Below are positions 1 to 10,019 of a DNA stretch of 38,949 nucleotides, one piece after another. The stretch is from an uncultured Flavobacteriales bacterium (GTDB lineage Bacteria > Bacteroidota > Bacteroidia > Flavobacteriales > BACL11): the NCBI GenBank assembly GCA_905478185.1, contig CAJQHO010000064.1, forward strand, positions 1 to 38,949, written 5' to 3'. Under the pieces are notes generated by a model. The model did not search any database. It had not been told where the DNA came from and saw only the letters and a program-made list of their open reading frames with translations. The translations under genes and the position numbers were made by a program. Numbering within the stretch: position 1 is the first letter of the stretch; every line of letters begins with the position of its first letter.

Positions 1-1171
1 TCCATTTATCAGGATATAAATTAGAAAATTTCTTTTCTATTTCCTTCTGCAGTAAAAATGTAGGATCAGCTGTATTATCACGCATTACAATAAAATTCTG
101 CATAGACAAATCCTGCAACCCATCACCATTAGGTTTTCTGCTTTTAGAATATTCTTCAAAGCAAGACTTTAAATCATCTCCATGCTTATCTAATAATTCA
201 TCTAACATTCTACAATCCTCAAGACTTGCATTCATACCTTGTCCATAAAACGGTACCGTTGCATGAGCAGCATCCCCAATTAACACGGAAGTATCTTTTA
301 TATGCCAAGGATAAGTTTTTATAATACCTAAGCCAGAAGTTGGATTAGCAATCCACTGTTCATATAAATCAGGAACTAAATCTAAAAAATCAGGGAAAAT
401 AGTACTGAAATAATTTTCTACCTCTGACTTTGAGTTTAGACCTTCAAAAGATTTCTCGCCTTTTTTAGGCGCAAATAAAGTACAAGTAAAACTGCCATCC
501 AAGTTAGCTAGTGCAATAAGCATAAACTCTCCTCTTGGCCAAATATGTAAGGCATTCTTATCTAATAAAAAATTTCCGTTTTTATCTGGAGGAATATGTA
601 ATTCTTTATAGTCATGATCGATTTTATTATAACTATAGTCATGATCATACTGCACTACCATTTGCTTCCTAACGGCTGAAAAAGCTCCATCAGCTCCAAT
701 TATCAAATCAGATGTGACGGTTTGATTTTGATTTGTATTAGTGTTTTCAAAAACTACACTTGCCTGTTCAAGGTTAGCTTCTACGCATTTCTCATTAAAA
801 TAAAGATTCGCTCCATTTTTTGCAGCCAATTTCATCATTAGTACATTTAATTGAGCTCTTGATACAGAATAAATTGCCTGACCATCATTTCCGTAAAGTT
901 GCTCTGTTAAATTACCTTTATCATCATGCATTATTCGTTTATCCATAGGTATAGCGATTTTCATTACCTCAGAGTCAACCCCAACCTTTTTTAATGCAGT
1001 CAAACCCCTTTTTGAAAGTGCTAAATTGATAGACTTCCCTGCAGTAATAATCTCTGAACGCAAGTCGTTTCTTCTTTCAAAAATAGAAACATGATGCCCT
1101 CTTTTGGTTAAATATAAAGCACATAATGAACCTGCTAATCCAGCTCCTACAATTGTAATATTCTTCTGCAT
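1..1171 (-). CDS. kmo: Kynurenine 3-monooxygenase (FAD-dependent), partial, 3' end cut by window start
   Basis: Not in the ORF track because it is truncated. Reverse-strand translation from ATG at 1171..1169: MQKNITIVGAGLAGSLCALYLTKRGHHVSIFERRNDLRSEIITAGKSINLALSKRGL...; later LIGDAAHATVPFYGQGMNASLEDC, typical of KMO. Start overlaps kynU stop (TAATG). Confidence 0.95.
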   Translation of the reverse strand, partial: MQKNITIVGAGLAGSLCALYLTKRGHHVSIFERRNDLRSEIITAGKSINLALSKRGLTALKKVGVDSEVMKIAIPMDKRIMHDDKGNLTEQLYGNDGQAIYSVSRAQLNVLMMKLAAKNGANLYFNEKCVEANLEQASVVFENTNTNQNQTVTSDLIIGADGAFSAVRKQMVVQYDHDYSYNKIDHDYKELHIPPDKNGNFLLDKNALHIWPRGEFMLIALANLDGSFTCTLFAPKKGEKSFEGLNSKSEVENYFSTIFPDFLDLVPDLYEQWIANPTSGLGIIKTYPWHIKDTSVLIGDAAHATVPFYGQGMNASLEDCRMLDELLDKHGDDLKSCFEEYSKSRKPNGDGLQDLSMQNFIVMRDNTADPTFLLQKEIEKKFSNLYPDKW

Positions 1172-2421
1172 TATAATTCTTCTTTTAGGATATTATAAAA
1201 ATTAAACACATCCTGAAAACTATTGTAAAGTGGAATAGGCGCCACACGAATTACGTCCGGTTCTCTCCAATCCGCAACTACTCCTTTTTCTGTAATGGAA
1301 TCAAACAAAGTTTTATTACCATTTTTGACTCGGATAGAAAGCTGGCAACCTCTTTCTTTTGGTGTAATAATTTCTATTCTATCAGTATCGATTTTATTCA
1401 ATAAATACAATAAGTAATTTGTTAATTCTTTAGATTTTGCAACTAACTTATCCATTCCCACCTCATCAAAAATAGATAGAGAAGCACGAATTGCTGCTAA
1501 AGATAAAATTGGAGGATTACTCAATTGCCACCCCTCGGCTGATTGTATAGGATTAAAACTATCTGGCATTTTAAATCTATCCTCTTTGTTGTGCCCCCAC
1601 CAACCTGCAAAACGGTTAAGTTTTGTAGCATGATGTTTTTCATGTACAAAAGCTGCTGCTACAGATCCAGGGCCAGAATTCAAGTATTTATAAGAACACC
1701 AAACTGCAAAATCAACCCCCCATTTATGCAGTTTTAATTTAATATTTCCTGCTGCATGCGCCAAATCAAAACCAACATTAATTCCCTTGGCTTGAGCAAA
1801 TTTTGTAATTTTTTCAAAGTCAAAAACCTGACCCGTATAATAGTTTACGCCTCCCAACATAATAAGTGCAATATCCTCTCCTTCTCTTTCAATTATTGCA
1901 GCAATATCTTCTGTTCGTATTGCAGATTCACCATCTCTTGGCCTTAGTTTTATCAAAGAAGTTTCCGGAGACAGTCCATGGTGTTTTATCTGAGATTCTA
2001 CTGCATAGATATCAGATGGAAATGCATCTCCCTCAATAATAATTTTATGTCTTTTTTCAGTAGGCTGGTAAAAAGAAACCATCATTAAATGCAGGTTTAC
2101 CGTTAGGGTGTTCATAGCAACCACTTCAGTTGGTTTTGCTCCAACAATTTTAGCATAACTCTCGGTTAAAAATTCATGATAAGGCATCCAAGGGTTTTTG
2201 GCATGAAAATGTCCTTCCACCCCAAAAGTAGCCCAATCTTCCAACTCCTGATTTAAGAATTCCTTGGTGCGTTTAGGCTGCAATCCGAGTGAGTTCCCAC
2301 ACATGTAAATATGCTCTTCTCCATTTTTTTGCAATGGAATATGAAACTCATTTCTATAATTACTTAATTCATCTTTTGCATCTAAACTTAATGCGAAATC
2401 TGCTGTATTTTTATACTTCAT
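1171..2421 (-). CDS. kynU: Kynureninase (PLP-dependent)
   Basis: MCGNSLGLQPKRTKEFLNQELEDWATFGVEGHF, FDLAHAAGNIKLKLHKWGVDFAVWCSYKYLNSGPG (PLP lysine region); sits between kmo and the other kynurenine genes. Confidence 0.97.
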   Translation of the reverse strand: MKYKNTADFALSLDAKDELSNYRNEFHIPLQKNGEEHIYMCGNSLGLQPKRTKEFLNQELEDWATFGVEGHFHAKNPWMPYHEFLTESYAKIVGAKPTEVVAMNTLTVNLHLMMVSFYQPTEKRHKIIIEGDAFPSDIYAVESQIKHHGLSPETSLIKLRPRDGESAIRTEDIAAIIEREGEDIALIMLGGVNYYTGQVFDFEKITKFAQAKGINVGFDLAHAAGNIKLKLHKWGVDFAVWCSYKYLNSGPGSVAAAFVHEKHHATKLNRFAGWWGHNKEDRFKMPDSFNPIQSAEGWQLSNPPILSLAAIRASLSIFDEVGMDKLVAKSKELTNYLLYLLNKIDTDRIEIITPKERGCQLSIRVKNGNKTLFDSITEKGVVADWREPDVIRVAPIPLYNSFQDVFNFYNILKEEL

Positions 2422-3211
2422 TTATCTTGTAAATTATGGGTCTGCTTGGTGCTGCATCCGAAACAAATGCAGGGATTTGCAGATTTAATAGATAGGTTCC
2501 ATCTTCCACAGAAGAAGGAACAAAAATCATTTCTGTAATGGTTTTATTTTGGGTGTTCGGATTCAACTCTTTCCCTTTTGTTTCCCAAAAAATACTATGA
2601 GCAGATAGATGTCCGTCATCAAACAATCTATCTACTGAAGGAGTGTCCACCAATAAATGTTTCACTCCTAAACTTACTAGATAATCCATTGCATCTATAC
2701 TAAAAAAAGCAGGAGTTTCTTTCATATAATCTCTACTTTTCTTTTCTTCAGAATTAGGAAGTGTTCGTATAATAATTCCTTTTAATAACTCAATATTGAC
2801 TCCTTTGAGTTGAATTTCCAAATCCTCCTTGGTGATTACTAAATCCTCTTTATTTAAATCAGGAGTATAATTTTCATTAGTATTTTTTGGAATAACCGAA
2901 ACTAAAGTTGATGGAATTAATTCATCATTCAAAGACGATAATATATCAATTATTTCATCTGTAATATGACCAATACATTCTGTATGCGTTCCGTTACAAT
3001 GAGGAGTAAAACTATAGGTTTCAAAATTACAAGGGCCTCCTTTTCGTGTATCGCCAATAAATTGTCCGTCCTGGTAAGGTGCTGAACTTGCTCTATCAAC
3101 CCCATAAGTATTGGGCTGTTCTCCATTAAAATTTAAAGGAATAGAAATGTCATTTCCTTTAGAGAAATCAACTTGACATTTTGAGTTTCCTATTTCTACT
3201 ACTGCCTTCAT
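2411..3211 (-). CDS. Cyclase-family metal-dependent hydrolase, putative kynurenine formamidase
   Basis: HxNGTHTExxGH motif (PHCNGTHTECIGHI) resembling the cyclase-family HxGTHxDxxxH metal site; operon position fits the arylformamidase step. Confidence 0.75.
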   Translation of the reverse strand: MKAVVEIGNSKCQVDFSKGNDISIPLNFNGEQPNTYGVDRASSAPYQDGQFIGDTRKGGPCNFETYSFTPHCNGTHTECIGHITDEIIDILSSLNDELIPSTLVSVIPKNTNENYTPDLNKEDLVITKEDLEIQLKGVNIELLKGIIIRTLPNSEEKKSRDYMKETPAFFSIDAMDYLVSLGVKHLLVDTPSVDRLFDDGHLSAHSIFWETKGKELNPNTQNKTITEMIFVPSSVEDGTYLLNLQIPAFVSDAAPSRPIIYKINEV

Positions 3212-4230
3212 TATATGAAATCTTCTTTTTTCATATTTAACCAGTTCAATGCATTAACAGAAAGTAATTTCTCTTTTACATTAATTGGGTAAGGCATAGC
3301 ATGTATCAATTTTCCTGGGTCCAATTCTCCTAAAGGGAAAGGGTAATCAGTACCCAAAGCCACTTTATCTTCACCTACTAATTCCACAAGATACTCCAAC
3401 ATCTTATCATCATGTACCAAAGAATCTAACCAAAATTCTCCTAAATAATCTTTTGGATTTACATTATTATCCACCGCAACCAAATCCGGACGCACATTAA
3501 ATCCATGCTCAATTCTTCCGATAGTTGCAGGGAAAGAACCTCCACCATGAGCAAAAGCAACTCTCAATTTTGGAAATTTTTGAAACACGCCACTAAAGAT
3601 CATAGAACAAATTGCAAGAGAAGTTTCCATTGGCATACCTACTAACCATGAGAGCCAATACTTATCCATTTTCTCTTTTGCCATCCACCACCAAGGGTGA
3701 ATAAAAATACACATGTCCAACTCCTCACATGCTGCATAAAAAGGGACAAAGGAAGGGTCGTCCAAGTTTAAACTATTGATATGAGAGCCAATTTGAACTC
3801 CTTTAAAGCCTAATTTTTTAGCTCTTTCTAATTCTTTAATTGCCATGTCAGTGTTCTGCATAGGCACATTTGCCAAGCCAACAAATCTTTTAGGATTTGC
3901 ATCCACTACTTTTATCAAATCATCATTTATAAATTTAGAAATATCCGATCCATCTCTAGGACTAGTCCAATACGAAAACATAACCGGAACGGTAGATAAA
4001 ACCTGAACATCAACATCCTGATGATCACATTCAGTAATTCTCAATTCAGGATCCCAACAGTTTGATTCTACTTCTCTAAAAAACTGATCATTCATCATCA
4101 TTTTAGCACAACAAGGTTTATGGTGTTCTAATTGTACAAACTCTCCATACCCAAATCGTTTATTGAAGTTAGGGATATCCTTTGGTAGGATATGAGTGTG
4201 AATGTCAATCGTAAATAATTTCTTCTTCAT
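3211..4230 (-). CDS. ACMSD: 2-amino-3-carboxymuconate-6-semialdehyde decarboxylase (ACMSD)
   Basis: TIDIHTHILPKDIPNF, HPWWWMAKEKMDKYWLSWLVGMPMETSLAICSMI, FAHGGGSFPATIGRIEHGF, LGTDYPFPLGELDPGK closely resemble ACMSD. Likely start is MKKKLFTIDIHTH at 4230; the track ORF extends upstream to 4272 into the previous gene. Confidence 0.95.
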   Translation of the reverse strand: MKKKLFTIDIHTHILPKDIPNFNKRFGYGEFVQLEHHKPCCAKMMMNDQFFREVESNCWDPELRITECDHQDVDVQVLSTVPVMFSYWTSPRDGSDISKFINDDLIKVVDANPKRFVGLANVPMQNTDMAIKELERAKKLGFKGVQIGSHINSLNLDDPSFVPFYAACEELDMCIFIHPWWWMAKEKMDKYWLSWLVGMPMETSLAICSMIFSGVFQKFPKLRVAFAHGGGSFPATIGRIEHGFNVRPDLVAVDNNVNPKDYLGEFWLDSLVHDDKMLEYLVELVGEDKVALGTDYPFPLGELDPGKLIHAMPYPINVKEKLLSVNALNWLNMKKEDFI

Positions 4231-4232
4231 AT

Positions 4233-4760
4233 TTATATAAATCGTTTGTCTATTTCCATGATGTGTCCGCAACTATTACAAGTTCTTTTGTCTTCTGAAG
4301 AATAAAATTCTTTAAATCTTGGTTGAAAATCTTTTTCTACATTGGTAAGTTGAAAATAAGTGTCATGAAGTGGCTCGTTACATTTATCGCAAAACCACAT
4401 AAGCCCATCTCTTTCTTTTGCAGTTCTTTTGCATTCAATTACTAAACCAATTGAACCTTCTGAACGCATAGGAGAATGGGGGACTTTTGCTGGCAATAAA
4501 AATACTTCTCCTTCTTTAACTGGCACATCAATAGCCTTTCCATCTTCTTGAATACGCACTACAATATCTCCTTTTATCTGATAAAAGAATTCTTCTGTTT
4601 CATTGTAATGAAAATCCTTACGGACATTCGGACCACCCACTACCATGATAATAAAATCTTCCGATTCAGTATACACACATTTATTCCCAACTGGGGGTTT
4701 TAATAAATCTTTATTATCTTCTATCCATTGTAGGAAATTGAAAGGTTTTCTAATACTCAT
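4233..4760 (-). CDS. nbaC: 3-hydroxyanthranilate 3,4-dioxygenase
   Basis: Cupin with HYNETEEFFYQIKGDIVVRIQEDGK and HSPMRSEGSIGLVIE plus C-terminal rubredoxin-like CxxC pairs (CDKC...CNSC). Confidence 0.96.
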   Translation of the reverse strand: MSIRKPFNFLQWIEDNKDLLKPPVGNKCVYTESEDFIIMVVGGPNVRKDFHYNETEEFFYQIKGDIVVRIQEDGKAIDVPVKEGEVFLLPAKVPHSPMRSEGSIGLVIECKRTAKERDGLMWFCDKCNEPLHDTYFQLTNVEKDFQPRFKEFYSSEDKRTCNSCGHIMEIDKRFI

Positions 4761-4764
4761 AATT

Positions 4765-5187
4765 TTAGGTTTTAATGGTTGCTATTACTTTTAATTCTAT
4801 TGCAATTGGAGTTGGTAAACTCTTTATTTCAATAGTAGTTCTGCAGGGTTGATTATCTTTAAAATATTCGGCATAAATTTTATTGTAGGTATTAAAATCA
4901 TCCTTCATATTGGTAAGGAAAACTTGAACATCTACCATGTTATCCCAAGATGAACCTGCATCTTCTAAAATAAAACGGATGTTATCAAAAACAGAATGAC
5001 ATTGCGTTTCTATATCATAACTTTCAATCTCTCCTACACTATTCAAAGTTACTCCCGGAATATCTGTTTGTCCTGCTTTTCTGGGTCCTACTCCTGATAA
5101 GTACAATATATTGCCAACCTTGCGAGCATGAGGATATAATCCTACTGCTTGTGGTGCTCTATCTGAATTAAATTTTTCTCCGTTCAT
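4765..5187 (-). CDS. RidA/YjgF family, probable 2-aminomuconate deaminase
   Basis: SDRAPQAVGLYPHARKVGNILYLSGVGPR...VFLTNMKDDFNTYNKIYAEYF...RTTIEIKSLPTPIAIELKVIA; location between haao and AMS dehydrogenase. Confidence 0.88.
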   Translation of the reverse strand: MNGEKFNSDRAPQAVGLYPHARKVGNILYLSGVGPRKAGQTDIPGVTLNSVGEIESYDIETQCHSVFDNIRFILEDAGSSWDNMVDVQVFLTNMKDDFNTYNKIYAEYFKDNQPCRTTIEIKSLPTPIAIELKVIATIKT

Positions 5188-5191
5188 TTTT

Positions 5192-5644
5192 CTAAATTTC
5201 TTTATACATATAATAATGAGGTCCTATTGCTTCAATATCAAAAAGCTCTCCGATAATCTTAAATCCTACAGATTTATAAAAACTGACTGCCACTAAACGG
5301 GCATTACACCACAGCATATCACAGTCTCTTTTTTTAAGTTCTTTAAATGATTCTTCCATCAAATCTGAAGCATAACCTTTTCTTTGAAATCGAGAGTCAG
5401 TTGCCATTCCTCTTAATCTATATGCTCTGTTTGATTTTATCTTTATTGATTTTTCAGGATAATATGAAGCGCATGTTACAATCTTTTCACCTACAATACA
5501 AGCCATGTGAAAAGTCCCTGCTTCATAATCCTCTATATAGGAAGTAGTAGAAAAATCTTGTCCTTTTCTTAACTCAGAATGCCTTAAAGGTCTGACTTTT
5601 TTAGCCTCTACTTTTCTTATATTTACTTTCAATTGTGTTGTCAT
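5192..5644 (-). CDS. GNAT family N-acetyltransferase
   Basis: RLRGMATDSRFQRKGYASDLMEESFKEL (acetyl-CoA binding loop) and NARLVAVSFYKSVGFKIIGE. Confidence 0.88.
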   Translation of the reverse strand: MTTQLKVNIRKVEAKKVRPLRHSELRKGQDFSTTSYIEDYEAGTFHMACIVGEKIVTCASYYPEKSIKIKSNRAYRLRGMATDSRFQRKGYASDLMEESFKELKKRDCDMLWCNARLVAVSFYKSVGFKIIGELFDIEAIGPHYYMYKEI

Positions 5645-5646
5645 CT

Positions 5647-7089
5647 TTAAATCTTAACGCATATATTTTTAGGTTCAGTGAAAAACTGAAGGGACTTAAA
5701 GCCTCCTTCTCTTCCAACGCCTGATTGTTTCATTCCTCCAAAAGGGATTCGTAAATCTCGTAAAAGCCATGTGTTAATCCACACAATTCCAGAGTCAATA
5801 TTTGCAGCAACTCTGTGGGCTTTACTTATATTTTCGGTAAAGATAGATGCTGATAATCCATACTTAGTTGAATTGGCCATTTCCACTACTTCTTCTTCTG
5901 TTTTAAAAGGAATTAAGGAAACAACAGGTCCGAAAATCTCCTCTTGATTTATATCACAATCAGAAGAAAGTCCCTCAATAATTGTTGGCTGAACATAGTA
6001 CCCATCTTTTAGCTCTCCTTCTAGTATTTCTCTTTCTCCTCCAATTAAAATATTTCCTCCTAAAGTTTTTGCTAACTCAATTTTTGCTAGGATTTTTTCC
6101 ATATGATTCTTGGAAACTACTGCTCCTAAATTAGATGTAGTGTCTTTTGGGTCACCTACTTTTAATTTTGCTGTTTTAGCAACTAAAGCATCTCTAAATT
6201 TATCGTAAATTTCTTCTTGAATAAACAGGCGAGAACCACACAAACAAATTTGCCCCTGATTGGTAAATGCTGCACGAGACGCCATACTAACGGACTTATC
6301 AAAATCAGCATCTGCAAAAACAATATTTGGATTTTTTCCTCCCATTTCCAATGAAAGTTTTTTGAACATTGGTGCTGTTACAGAAGCAATATGTTTTCCG
6401 GTAAGAGTACCTCCCGTAAAGGAAACAATCGGCACATCAGGATGCATAGTTAATGGGTCTCCCGTTTTACTTCCTAATCCATGAACGATATTCAATACGC
6501 CTTTCGGTAATCCTGCCTCAATACAAATTTTACTTAGTAAATAAGCGGTCATTGGAGTAACTTCAGAAGGTTTTGCGACTACTGTATTTCCTGCAGCTAG
6601 TGCAGGGGCAATTTTCCAAGTCAATAAATAAAGGGGTAAATTCCATGGAGAAATACAGGCTGCTACTCCTACTGGTTGACGCAAAGTATAGTTGATTGCC
6701 ATACCGTCCATTTCATGCATTTCAGAACTATCATGAAGGATTGCTCCTGCAAAAAATCGAATATTAGCAGGTGCTCTTGGGATATCCACATGAGCGGCTA
6801 AAGTTTCTGGTTTTCCATTGTCTTTACTTTCAGCTTTTATCAATTCATCTGAATACTTTTCAATCGTATCAGCTAACTTCATTAGGATATCAGAACGCTT
6901 TTGTTTTGGAGTTTTACTCCAACCTTTAAACGCTTCTTTGGCAGCTGCAACCGCATTGTCAATATCCTGCTTTTCAGAGTCTGGAATTAAAGAATACACC
7001 TCCCCGTTAGATGGATTGTAGTTATCTAAATAATTTCCGTTTGTTGGTGCTACCAACTCTCCATTTATATAATTTAAAATCTTTTCCAT
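5647..7089 (-). CDS. amnC: Aldehyde dehydrogenase, probable 2-aminomuconate 6-semialdehyde dehydrogenase
   Basis: ISPWNLPLYLLTWKIAPALAAGNTVVAKPSE, LEMGGKNPNIVFADAD, NQGQICLCGSR (catalytic Cys); resembles the ALDH8A1/AMSDH group; in kynurenine operon. Confidence 0.92.
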   Translation of the reverse strand: MEKILNYINGELVAPTNGNYLDNYNPSNGEVYSLIPDSEKQDIDNAVAAAKEAFKGWSKTPKQKRSDILMKLADTIEKYSDELIKAESKDNGKPETLAAHVDIPRAPANIRFFAGAILHDSSEMHEMDGMAINYTLRQPVGVAACISPWNLPLYLLTWKIAPALAAGNTVVAKPSEVTPMTAYLLSKICIEAGLPKGVLNIVHGLGSKTGDPLTMHPDVPIVSFTGGTLTGKHIASVTAPMFKKLSLEMGGKNPNIVFADADFDKSVSMASRAAFTNQGQICLCGSRLFIQEEIYDKFRDALVAKTAKLKVGDPKDTTSNLGAVVSKNHMEKILAKIELAKTLGGNILIGGEREILEGELKDGYYVQPTIIEGLSSDCDINQEEIFGPVVSLIPFKTEEEVVEMANSTKYGLSASIFTENISKAHRVAANIDSGIVWINTWLLRDLRIPFGGMKQSGVGREGGFKSLQFFTEPKNICVKI

Positions 7090-7868
7090 TACAAACTAGC
7101 TGTTCTACCACCATCAACTGGGAGGTTAATTCCGTTAATATAACTTGCTGCTGGGCTACATAAAAAGGCCACAGCATTTGCAGTTTCATATGCCTGGCCA
7201 AATCTATTAGCTGGCACAGATGATTTCATTGTGTTTGCAATTTCTTCTTCTGTTTTTCCTTGTACAGATGCTTTCTTTGTAATTAAAGTTTTCAATCGGT
7301 TAGTATCCGTAAATCCTGGCAATACATTGTTTACCGTAATTCCGTAAGCTCCTACTTCAATAGAAAGTGTTTTTGCCCAGTTAGCAACTGCCGCACGGAT
7401 GGTATTAGAAACTCCCAACCCTGGAATTGGGGCTTTTACTGAAGTAGAAATAATATTTATAATTCTTCCAAAACCTTCTTTTTTCATTCCTTCAATAACT
7501 TTCTGAACCAAAATCTGATTGTTTACCAAATGCATTCTGAATGCATCCTCAAAAGAATCTGTTTTTGCATCAGTAATAGGCCCTCCTGCTGGTCCTCCGG
7601 TATTATTTATCAAAATATGATAAGTTCCTTTTAAAAGATTCACTTCTTCTTTTAGTTTTTCAGTGTCCGAAAAATCAATACAAACAAAAGAATGAATTTG
7701 CCCTTGGGATTTATCCAAATCATTTAACACATTTAAAAGTTTACTTTCATTACGGGCAATTAGCGTGATGTTTGCTCCTAATTTTGCCAACTCAATAGCA
7801 GAGGCTTCTCCAATTCCTTGGGTACTTCCACACACAATTGCATTTTTATTTTTTAAATCTAAGTTCAT
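7089..7868 (-). CDS. Short-chain dehydrogenase/reductase-like protein with atypical active site
   Basis: Rossmann CGSTQGIG, INNTGGPAGGP; the YxxxK position reads SNTIR; C-terminal INLPVDGGRTASL. Confidence 0.88.
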   Translation of the reverse strand: MNLDLKNKNAIVCGSTQGIGEASAIELAKLGANITLIARNESKLLNVLNDLDKSQGQIHSFVCIDFSDTEKLKEEVNLLKGTYHILINNTGGPAGGPITDAKTDSFEDAFRMHLVNNQILVQKVIEGMKKEGFGRIINIISTSVKAPIPGLGVSNTIRAAVANWAKTLSIEVGAYGITVNNVLPGFTDTNRLKTLITKKASVQGKTEEEIANTMKSSVPANRFGQAYETANAVAFLCSPAASYINGINLPVDGGRTASL

Positions 7869-8927
7869 TTATTCTATAATTATTTTTTTCTCTACCGTTC
7901 CATTTTCAAAGATGTAAAACAGTGGAGTATTTCTTATTTCTTTTGTTTCTCTTCCTAAAATATCTGTTATTTTGAGGAGTTCTTTATTTGTAACCTGTTC
8001 TTCTATTGATGTTGAACCACTGCAATTTGTACTAAAATAATGTTGAGAATCAATATTTGTCCAATTAGCGTTTGAATAAGAATCATCATCAACATTAATA
8101 CAAGTAAGATTTGGATTTCCTGTTGTATAAAAATTATAAAAATTTATATTATTTCCATTTCTTATGTCAAGACTTATCAGTTGATTATCTCTACAACTAA
8201 AAGAACGTACTGCAGTTGCTCCACTTACATCAAGTGATATAAGGTTGTTGTTTGAGCAATACAAATTATTTAAAACAGAAGCTCCACTTACATTTAGACT
8301 TGTTAGATTATTACTAGAACAATCCAAATTAAATAAAGAAGTATTAGTACTAATATTAAGATTTGTTAAATTATTATCATCACAATCTAAAGAAGTTAAA
8401 CTAGTAAAATCTTCTATTCCTGTTAAGTCATTAATATTAAGACTGCTTAAATGTAATTCTGTTACAGTATCTATAGCTGAGGTATAAACATTATCATCAT
8501 TAGAAATTCCATTGCCTAGTCCATTTGATTCTAAATAAGTTTCAAAACTATCATCAGGGACATAAGTTAGTGTGGCAGATCCATTAACAACCGTGAACTC
8601 TCCAATCATTCCATTTGGAATATGAGGAGTGCAAACATATTCATATTTGCCTGCAACTTGAGGGATATATTGGAAAAATGTATCGGCAGGCATTTGCCAT
8701 ACTTGATCAAAAGAAGCTGCTCCAACAGGAATGTTATCAGACGTTATAGTATGAAGCATCATTGGAAGTAATCCAGCAAAAGGTTCCCACTCCAAAGTGT
8801 CACCCAATTGGATTGTAATACTAGCTGGAACGAACTGATAATAGCCCCCCCATACTCCTATTGTATGTATTGTACCTTTTGAACTAAAAGAAGAAAGAAT
8901 AAATAATGCCAGTAGTAGTTTTTTCAT
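7869..8927 (-). CDS. Secreted cupredoxin + leucine-rich-repeat protein with T9SS C-terminal sorting domain
   Basis: Signal peptide MKKLLLALFILSSFSSKG; type I Cu motif H...VCTPHIPNGM (C-x2-H-x4-M); LRRs LTSLDCDDNNLTNLNIS/NLDCSSNNLTSLNVS/NLYCSNNNLISLDVS; C-terminus LLKITDILGRETKE...YIFENGTVEKKIIIE. Confidence 0.88.
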   Translation of the reverse strand: MKKLLLALFILSSFSSKGTIHTIGVWGGYYQFVPASITIQLGDTLEWEPFAGLLPMMLHTITSDNIPVGAASFDQVWQMPADTFFQYIPQVAGKYEYVCTPHIPNGMIGEFTVVNGSATLTYVPDDSFETYLESNGLGNGISNDDNVYTSAIDTVTELHLSSLNINDLTGIEDFTSLTSLDCDDNNLTNLNISTNTSLFNLDCSSNNLTSLNVSGASVLNNLYCSNNNLISLDVSGATAVRSFSCRDNQLISLDIRNGNNINFYNFYTTGNPNLTCINVDDDSYSNANWTNIDSQHYFSTNCSGSTSIEEQVTNKELLKITDILGRETKEIRNTPLFYIFENGTVEKKIIIE

Positions 8928-8930
8928 AAT

Positions 8931-10019
8931 CTATTTTTTGTAATTAAATCCTAATGTATCTTTTATCTTTTGGGGTAATTCCGGTAAATAGGAGCGAGAA
9001 ATCATCAGTGTAGAGATATTTGCCAAATCAGTAAATAGCTTGTGCTTATCCACAGTTTGCTTTAAATATCCTTGTCCTGAACTTCCTCCAGTTCCAATTT
9101 TTTGTCCTAACATTTTTTCTACCATTTGCACATGTCGGAATCTCCAAGTTGCAATTTTATGGTCTAGCTCCACAATGCTTCTCAAAAACTGATACGGTAA
9201 ATGTAAAATTGGTTGATCACGGTATAAATTGATAAGTAATGCAGACATAGTTGCTTTGTATGAAAGTGTTGTTTCCCCTTCTTCCATTGCTTTATTATGC
9301 TCTTGTTCCGAAAGTACTCTTTCAAAATATTTTTTGTTTTCTTCAATCATACGGATTCTAATTTCTCTATCACTATCCGTTAAGTTTGCTGCTTTAATTC
9401 CTGCAATTTCTTTGTCCAACATTGCATTAACAGCTCCCTCATATTTTGCTGTAAAATCAAAGCCCTCCATATTTAAAAACGGAATACGCTCCAACCATTT
9501 TTCAACTAGATTAAAGAGAGACGCATCATCTTCTAAATTTAGAATTTCTTCTTTCTTTTCTCCTTCAAATTGTGCGTGATAAGGACAACCTCCAAACTGA
9601 TGTCTTTTCTTAATTTTAAGCCCCAACATTACTTCTAACTTTCTGAACTGATGAGATTGAAATCCTGATGCTGGAGATAAATGATCTCTAAAATCTAAGA
9701 AATCCAGAGAAGTCATTGTTTCTAAGATATCCAACTGTCCAACAAGGGTAGTCATAATTTTGTTTACCCTATCCATTCTCCTTACAATTACCCCAACATT
9801 ACTTTCATTAATTTTATCAGCCTTAAACAAATCCATTGCCGATTCAATTTCATGTAAAATCTGTTTGAACCATAATTCATATGTTTGGTGGATGATAATA
9901 AAAAGCATTTCCTCATGTGCCGCTTTTTTACCTTCCCCACTTAAAGGGTGTTGAGCATCCAATACTTTATCGAGCGCCAAGTAATTTATATAGTGTACTG
10001 ATGTTGTTTCTTCTGACAT
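8931..10019 (-). CDS. kynA: Tryptophan 2,3-dioxygenase
   Basis: HYINYLALDKVLDAQHPLS, HEEMLFIIIHQTYELWFKQILHEIES, DFRDHLSPASGFQSHQFRKLE, GTGGSSGQGYLK: TDO signature. Confidence 0.97.
   Translation of the reverse strand: MSEETTSVHYINYLALDKVLDAQHPLSGEGKKAAHEEMLFIIIHQTYELWFKQILHEIESAMDLFKADKINESNVGVIVRRMDRVNKIMTTLVGQLDILETMTSLDFLDFRDHLSPASGFQSHQFRKLEVMLGLKIKKRHQFGGCPYHAQFEGEKKEEILNLEDDASLFNLVEKWLERIPFLNMEGFDFTAKYEGAVNAMLDKEIAGIKAANLTDSDREIRIRMIEENKKYFERVLSEQEHNKAMEEGETTLSYKATMSALLINLYRDQPILHLPYQFLRSIVELDHKIATWRFRHVQMVEKMLGQKIGTGGSSGQGYLKQTVDKHKLFTDLANISTLMISRSYLPELPQKIKDTLGFNYKK

Follow-up and report, generated by a model that had tools for sequence, protein, structure and literature searches.

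Why should a gene for an apparently exported blue-copper protein lie inside an operon for the breakdown of tryptophan in the cytosol? The question is raised by a gene in a 38,949-nucleotide stretch of DNA (the window) from an uncultured Flavobacteriales bacterium, placed between the genes for tryptophan 2,3-dioxygenase (TDO, kynA) and an SDR dehydrogenase. The genome of the window (1.66 Mb) is referred to as G000 and its sister genome as G001. The reading that we favour, with moderate confidence, is of a modular, exported blue-copper protein whose gene sits in an exchangeable accessory cargo slot, is translated with the operon and stands outside its chemistry.

Architecture of the gene and its operon

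The gene and its neighbours are listed in Table 1. The first-pass annotation, made from the sequence alone, described it as integrated into the operon, and this holds, with a 3-nt gap after the TDO stop and a stop codon (7869-7871) directly abutting the SDR ATG at 7868. From this spacing, co-transcription of the cargo gene with the operon appears plausible. Other tailed cargo genes have a 5' end similar to the start of this one, ATGAAAAAACTACTACT, as seen in matches to their common 5' arm. The signal peptide proposed earlier was recognised again by eye, and the structural model places a helix within it.

Table 1. Features of the window (residue numbers refer to the cargo protein)
Feature	Position	Strand	Basis or remark
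Signal peptide-cupredoxin-LRR-tail gene	7869..8927	(-)	352 aa, ATG start; ORF and abutting neighbours; PF00127
Sec signal peptide, residues 1-18	8874..8927	(-)	MKKLLLALFILSSFSSKG, by eye; modelled helix 2-14
Cupredoxin (type-1 copper) domain, residues 19-118	8574..8873	(-)	PF00127, 2plt, profiles, fold match
Copper-ligand codons H59 (8751-8753), C99 (8631-8633), H102 (8622-8624), M107 (8607-8609)	within 8607..8753	(-)	
LRR module and N-terminal cap, residues 122-257	8157..8564	(-)	about five 21-residue InlJ-like repeats
C-terminal tail (tail2), 38 aa and stop	7869..7985	(-)	second tail family, not PF18962
Last 21 nt of cargo gene, AAAAAAATAATTATAGAATAA	7869..7889	(-)	left as scar in G003, G006, G007; mutated in G005
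Spacer ATT between TDO stop and cargo ATG, 3 nt	8928..8930	(-)	
Tryptophan 2,3-dioxygenase (kynA/TDO), upstream slot border	8931..10019	(-)	PF03301, 7e-100
SDR dehydrogenase, downstream slot border	7089..7868	(-)	PF13561, 3e-37
Aldehyde dehydrogenase, probable 2-aminomuconate semialdehyde dehydrogenase (AMSDH)	5647..7089	(-)	PF00171
GNAT gene between AMSDH and RidA	5192-5644		
RidA-family protein, probable 2-aminomuconate deaminase	4765..5187	(-)	PF01042
3-Hydroxyanthranilate 3,4-dioxygenase (HAO)	4233..4760	(-)	NF009763, above cut-off
Amidohydrolase, probable ACMS decarboxylase (ACMSD)	3211..4230	(-)	PF04909
Cyclase-family protein, probable kynurenine formamidase	2411..3211	(-)	PF04199
Kynureninase	1171..2421	(-)	PF22580

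Several methods agree on the domain that follows the signal peptide. The Pfam Copper-bind model PF00127 matches it at 2e-6, over its cut-off, and a phmmer comparison with plastocyanin 2plt gave 4.5e-7; in profile comparison pseudoazurin was the best match (1.4e-9) and plastocyanin scored 3e-8, while the domain stays below the equivalog cut-offs for both. An AlphaFold model matches plastocyanins in the PDB with a TM score of 0.73-0.76 of the target and a probability of 1.00, pLDDT within the domain being about 58-86; the mean for the whole model is 67.5, so only the domain folds are trusted. The copper site that had been read from the sequence (C-x2-H-x4-M with an upstream histidine) is borne out by these searches and by the ligands themselves: two histidines, one cysteine and one methionine, the type-1 set, stand in the right order and are invariant in sets of 15 and of 21 homologues. 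The domain is predicted to bind copper. Its dN/dS of 0.10-0.51 indicates purifying selection, and diversifying selection was rejected on the same values. A viral origin was also rejected, as viral contigs held no relative of the cupredoxin. For the LRR module the best PDB match is internalin J, InlJ (3bz5, 6.2e-37), and modelled strands at residues 179, 200, 221 and 242 are spaced by exactly 21, in agreement with the earlier count of about five repeats of some 21 residues.

The rest of the operon encodes enzymes of the kynurenine pathway. The best NCBIfam model for the aldehyde dehydrogenase is 2-hydroxymuconic semialdehyde dehydrogenase, under its cut-off. In G013, kynureninase is followed by an FAD-monooxygenase ORF, judged by eye to be kynurenine monooxygenase, and with it the pathway seems to be complete. 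The GNAT gene is present or absent among relatives, with 53-85% identity. Between G000 and G001, HAO and ACMSD (window 3211-4760 and L069:7253-8915) are 66% and 28% identical, and most flanking genes 84-99%; an exchange within the operon seems to have brought in an alternative HAO-ACMSD pair. Two further observations concern the wider distribution of these genes. The public record CAMBDW010000003 (L130), titled Chryseobacterium gleum, bears the operon of the small marine Flavobacteriales and is probably mislabelled. A divergent TDO-like protein of about 300-345 aa, with 33-44% local identity, occurs in many other Flavobacteriales and is distinct from the operon TDO.

The C-terminal tail

The consensus of tail2 (alignment A2) is LIKITDLLGRETKxxNxPLFYIYDDGTVEKKIIIE. 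In the window's genome 33 copies were found at protein C-termini, and many carriers have a signal peptide and otherwise unrelated bodies. The tail was present in 52 of the 52 family-f1 genomes searched (the window's genome included), at 2-51 copies each; beyond f1 it was found in families f7, f9 and f15 and once in f8, and the remaining families listed gave none, which confines it to a few related families. Among unrelated passengers in the window's genome, the DNA of the tails is 95-98% identical over the last 60-63 nt, higher than the 83-84% or so expected from codon usage (P<=0.003).

The first-pass annotation had called this end of the protein a type A T9SS tail. The letters it quoted are there and recur, but the assignment to type A was rejected, as the PF18962/TIGR04183 profile tests fail. 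A search of tail2 against Pfam and NCBIfam returned no model at E<=10, type A, B or C CTDs included; the protein is not among the 40 PF18962 (canonical type A) hits of its genome, and the YPNP (motif A/B) region is missing from the tail alignment. A comparison of tail2 with type A CTDs by hhalign, made with regard to the Gly/Lys-rich, D/E-like C-terminal end of such domains, gave a weak match (38 columns, P 5.8e-4, prob 29%). Homologous cupredoxins with a signal peptide in other Bacteroidetes MAGs, several of them labelled Crocinitomicaceae, end in a canonical YPNP type A tail, so that tail2 occupies the place of a sorting domain. The gene for the T9SS translocon protein SprA is present in the genome (2.6e-177), and the last 22 aa of HBP35, which has a type A CTD, are enough for secretion (PMC10202324). 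It is probable that tail2 is a short sorting tail that sends the protein to the cell surface via the type IX system, and the cupredoxin protein would accordingly be secreted by this route.

Occupancy of the junction and proposed exchange of passengers

Among the 39 TDO-SDR junctions compared, seven hold a cupredoxin gene (G000, G001, G004, G012, G019, G040 and G041). In an eighth case, G048, the cupredoxin gene is followed by SDR and the contig ends at its start, with TDO running off another contig. The association with kynA noted in the window therefore recurs among relatives, in eight genomes of four genera; the lack of such an association, which the first-pass annotation had named as grounds for rejection, is not what the genomes show. 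The same junction carries unrelated exported proteins in G013 (a secreted ORF) and G044 (a lipoprotein), which with the seven cupredoxin variants make up the intact inserts, all of them exported; G025 has a decayed relic, and the junction is empty in the majority of genomes that have this operon. The gene is thus not conserved wherever the operon occurs, as a dedicated component of it would be, nor is it confined to the operon, since stand-alone relatives lie elsewhere. Inserts of at least 120 nt are found at 10 of 39 TDO-SDR junctions as against 0 of 203 other in-operon junctions from SDR onward, counts that are not independent owing to shared ancestry.

Remnants of the 3' end of tail2 mark the junction in G003, G006 and G007 (20-21 nt), G005 (10 nt) and G026 (about 60 nt), and G035 retains a start-codon remnant. 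Suffix matches of at least 10 nt to this end were absent from all of the 205 further gene starts of the same operons (random chance 4.5e-5). In both G003 and G007 the junction reads AAAAAATAA-TTATAGAATAA-ATG, which is what would be left by a deletion between the AAAAAATAA at the end of TDO and its repeat in the tail.

A second slot lies at a dapF-GNAT-X-multihaem locus, where three species have three different tailed passengers: an LRR cargo in G000 (L201, G000:C51), a stand-alone cupredoxin gene in G002 (L249, G002:C58) and a 1048-aa cargo in G005 (L240, G005:C50). The gene start (signal peptide) and tail are common to all three. In G001 and G012 this slot is empty, and the GNAT stop abuts or nearly abuts the next gene. 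Inserts at both slots have ATT-ATG after the upstream stop and GAATAA-ATG at their end. The closest cupredoxins also occur as stand-alone genes in unrelated neighbourhoods, including one that follows dapF-GNAT in a separate operon; the stand-alone cupredoxin of G000:C7 matches the G002 gene at 97% identity over the whole length between start and stop codons, and lies in a different neighbourhood. A copper-handling neighbourhood for the stand-alone copies was considered and rejected, as the neighbours differ from genome to genome and include no obvious copper genes by eye. The G000:C7 gene (L116:1207-1695), a type II cupredoxin with tail, has a 1-nt frameshift and is either a pseudogene or an assembly error.

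These distributions bear on the earlier suggestion that the protein is co-regulated with tryptophan catabolism. Integration into the operon and recurrence beside kynA are borne out; that the protein serves catabolism is disfavoured by the unrelated proteins, remnants or nothing at the junction, and by the stand-alone copies. As a functional partner, a surface copper protein would oxidise or scavenge leaked 3-hydroxykynurenine or 3-hydroxyanthranilate, or bind an aromatic substrate, and would be kept for its co-regulation. The recurrence in eight genomes, the scars of an earlier tailed gene in several more and the purifying selection on the copper ligands are all compatible with such a role, which we nonetheless consider improbable: the cupredoxin is missing from most operon-bearing genomes, its junction holds unrelated exported proteins in others, close copies of it are found on their own or after dapF-GNAT, and the middle module is not conserved. 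The pathway enzymes recognised here are also not known to be copper enzymes, which counts against this role. The protein is more likely to be an accessory surface protein carried along by the operon than a part of tryptophan breakdown; the link of the cupredoxin to tryptophan would be positional and not functional, and no functional tie is needed. Persistence beside kynA in four genera could reflect selection for co-expression.

The region between cupredoxin and tail differs among relatives. The cupredoxin alone precedes the tail in G012 and G040, LRRs lie between the two in G000, G001, G041 and G048, and other sequence does so in G004 and G019. Comparison of G000 with G001 revealed a mosaic: TDO is 95-100% identical up to nt 960 and 83-84% in its 3' end, the cupredoxin is 63-87% identical, and identity returns to 97-100% at the LRR border, with one LRR segment at 78%. 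The difference appears to be a recombination tract that runs from the 3' end of TDO through the cupredoxin to the cupredoxin-LRR border; outside it, identity is mostly 97-100%. Relative to G002, the TDO 3' end of G001 is the more divergent, which suggests that it was imported and that its donor had a linked cupredoxin as well. In the cupredoxin tree, linked and unlinked copies are intermixed, with at least four changes by parsimony and weak support, and type I and type II cupredoxins each occur in linked and unlinked places. A comparison of cargo-locus flanks between G000 and G001 covered 11 of 14 prepared loci, C31 and C51a being uninterpretable through repeats; of the eight clearly scored, six carry inserts of equal length and two show a precise absence, so that exchange would be episodic rather than rampant.

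Could the gene instead be an ordinary ancestral member of the operon, inherited vertically in place and lost in many lineages, with no mechanism of exchange? The scars point to its presence before loss in the lineages of G003/G006/G007 and of G005, and on the TDO tree the genomes with a cupredoxin show some clustering (19 of 500 shuffles as low). Against this account stand the unrelated inserts of G013 and G044, the G000-G001 mosaic tract, the linked and unlinked places of both cupredoxin types and the three passengers at the dapF slot. The mosaic tract and the differing passengers already strain it, since vertical loss alone cannot place different passengers between identical ends; we judge it unlikely. 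The main reservation concerns draft assemblies. All the genomes used here are probably MAGs or drafts of another kind (nearly all of those retrieved by name are MAGs), and repeated gene starts and tails, the latter up to 98% identical across 63 nt within one genome, could have led assemblers to join wrong passengers to wrong flanks, but this is very unlikely to account for the pattern, since separate genomes agree on a cupredoxin beside kynA with correct frames and abutting neighbours, the G000/G001 break falls in unique TDO sequence, and misjoined tails cannot yield empty sites or short scars.

The proposed cargo slot and known systems

In the exchangeable-slot reading that we prefer, the signal peptide, the plastocyanin-like domain, the LRRs as a stalk or binding module and the short sorting tail would together form a modular exported protein. 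At the kynA-SDR stop-start junction the operon would supply expression, and the cargo would take no part in its chemistry. Genes that share this signal-peptide start and this tail may be gained, or lost via deletion at short repeats, and passengers between the constant ends may be exchanged by homologous recombination, here and at one or more other operon junctions. Both the co-expression and the recombination mechanism are what we infer from the arrangements described above. At the surface, the protein may act in binding or adhesion via its LRRs, with copper or electron handling.

A broader proposal is more tentative. In this lineage of small-genome marine Flavobacteriales, many exports may use a previously unnamed short tail, and their genes may be promoterless cassettes with near-constant ends (signal-peptide start and tail) that move into and out of metabolic operons at stop-start junctions, their passengers swapped by homologous recombination; the surface proteome would be reshuffled while its expression was borrowed from housekeeping operons. 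If right, this would explain exported surface proteins inside cytosolic pathway operons of these bacteria, and would warn against inferring function from such gene neighbourhoods. It would also mean that present profiles overlook an export tail carried by 33 proteins in a 1.66-Mb genome, and would offer a testable route by which marine bacteria could vary their surfaces. In the literature available for searching, no paper turned up on a cupredoxin combined with LRRs in a T9SS setting, or on domain shuffling in T9SS proteins.

Each module has known counterparts. The copper domain is like plastocyanin and pseudoazurin (PF00127) in its fold, its four ligands and its C-x2-H-x4-M spacing, but is fused to LRRs and a C-terminal tail and falls below their equivalog cut-offs. 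With T9SS type A CTD cargo (PF18962/TIGR04183) the protein shares a signal peptide and a conserved tail on diverse passengers, in a genome with SprA; unlike those CTDs, its tail has only 38 aa, lacks YPNP, matches nothing in Pfam or NCBIfam and is weakly similar. The LRRs resemble those of the Listeria internalin J type, with Cys-containing repeats of 21 residues, although there are only about five here, in a member of the Bacteroidota and without an LPXTG anchor, and no virulence role is implied; BspA of T. forsythia and similar LRR surface proteins offer a looser comparison. Surface-protein modules are shuffled by recombination in pilin or VSG-type gene conversion and in the exchange of polymorphic-toxin tips. 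Constant ends, exchanged middles and mosaic alleles are seen here as well, but the variation lies between species and not within a strain, and the inserts are found where one gene of a metabolic operon stops and the next starts.
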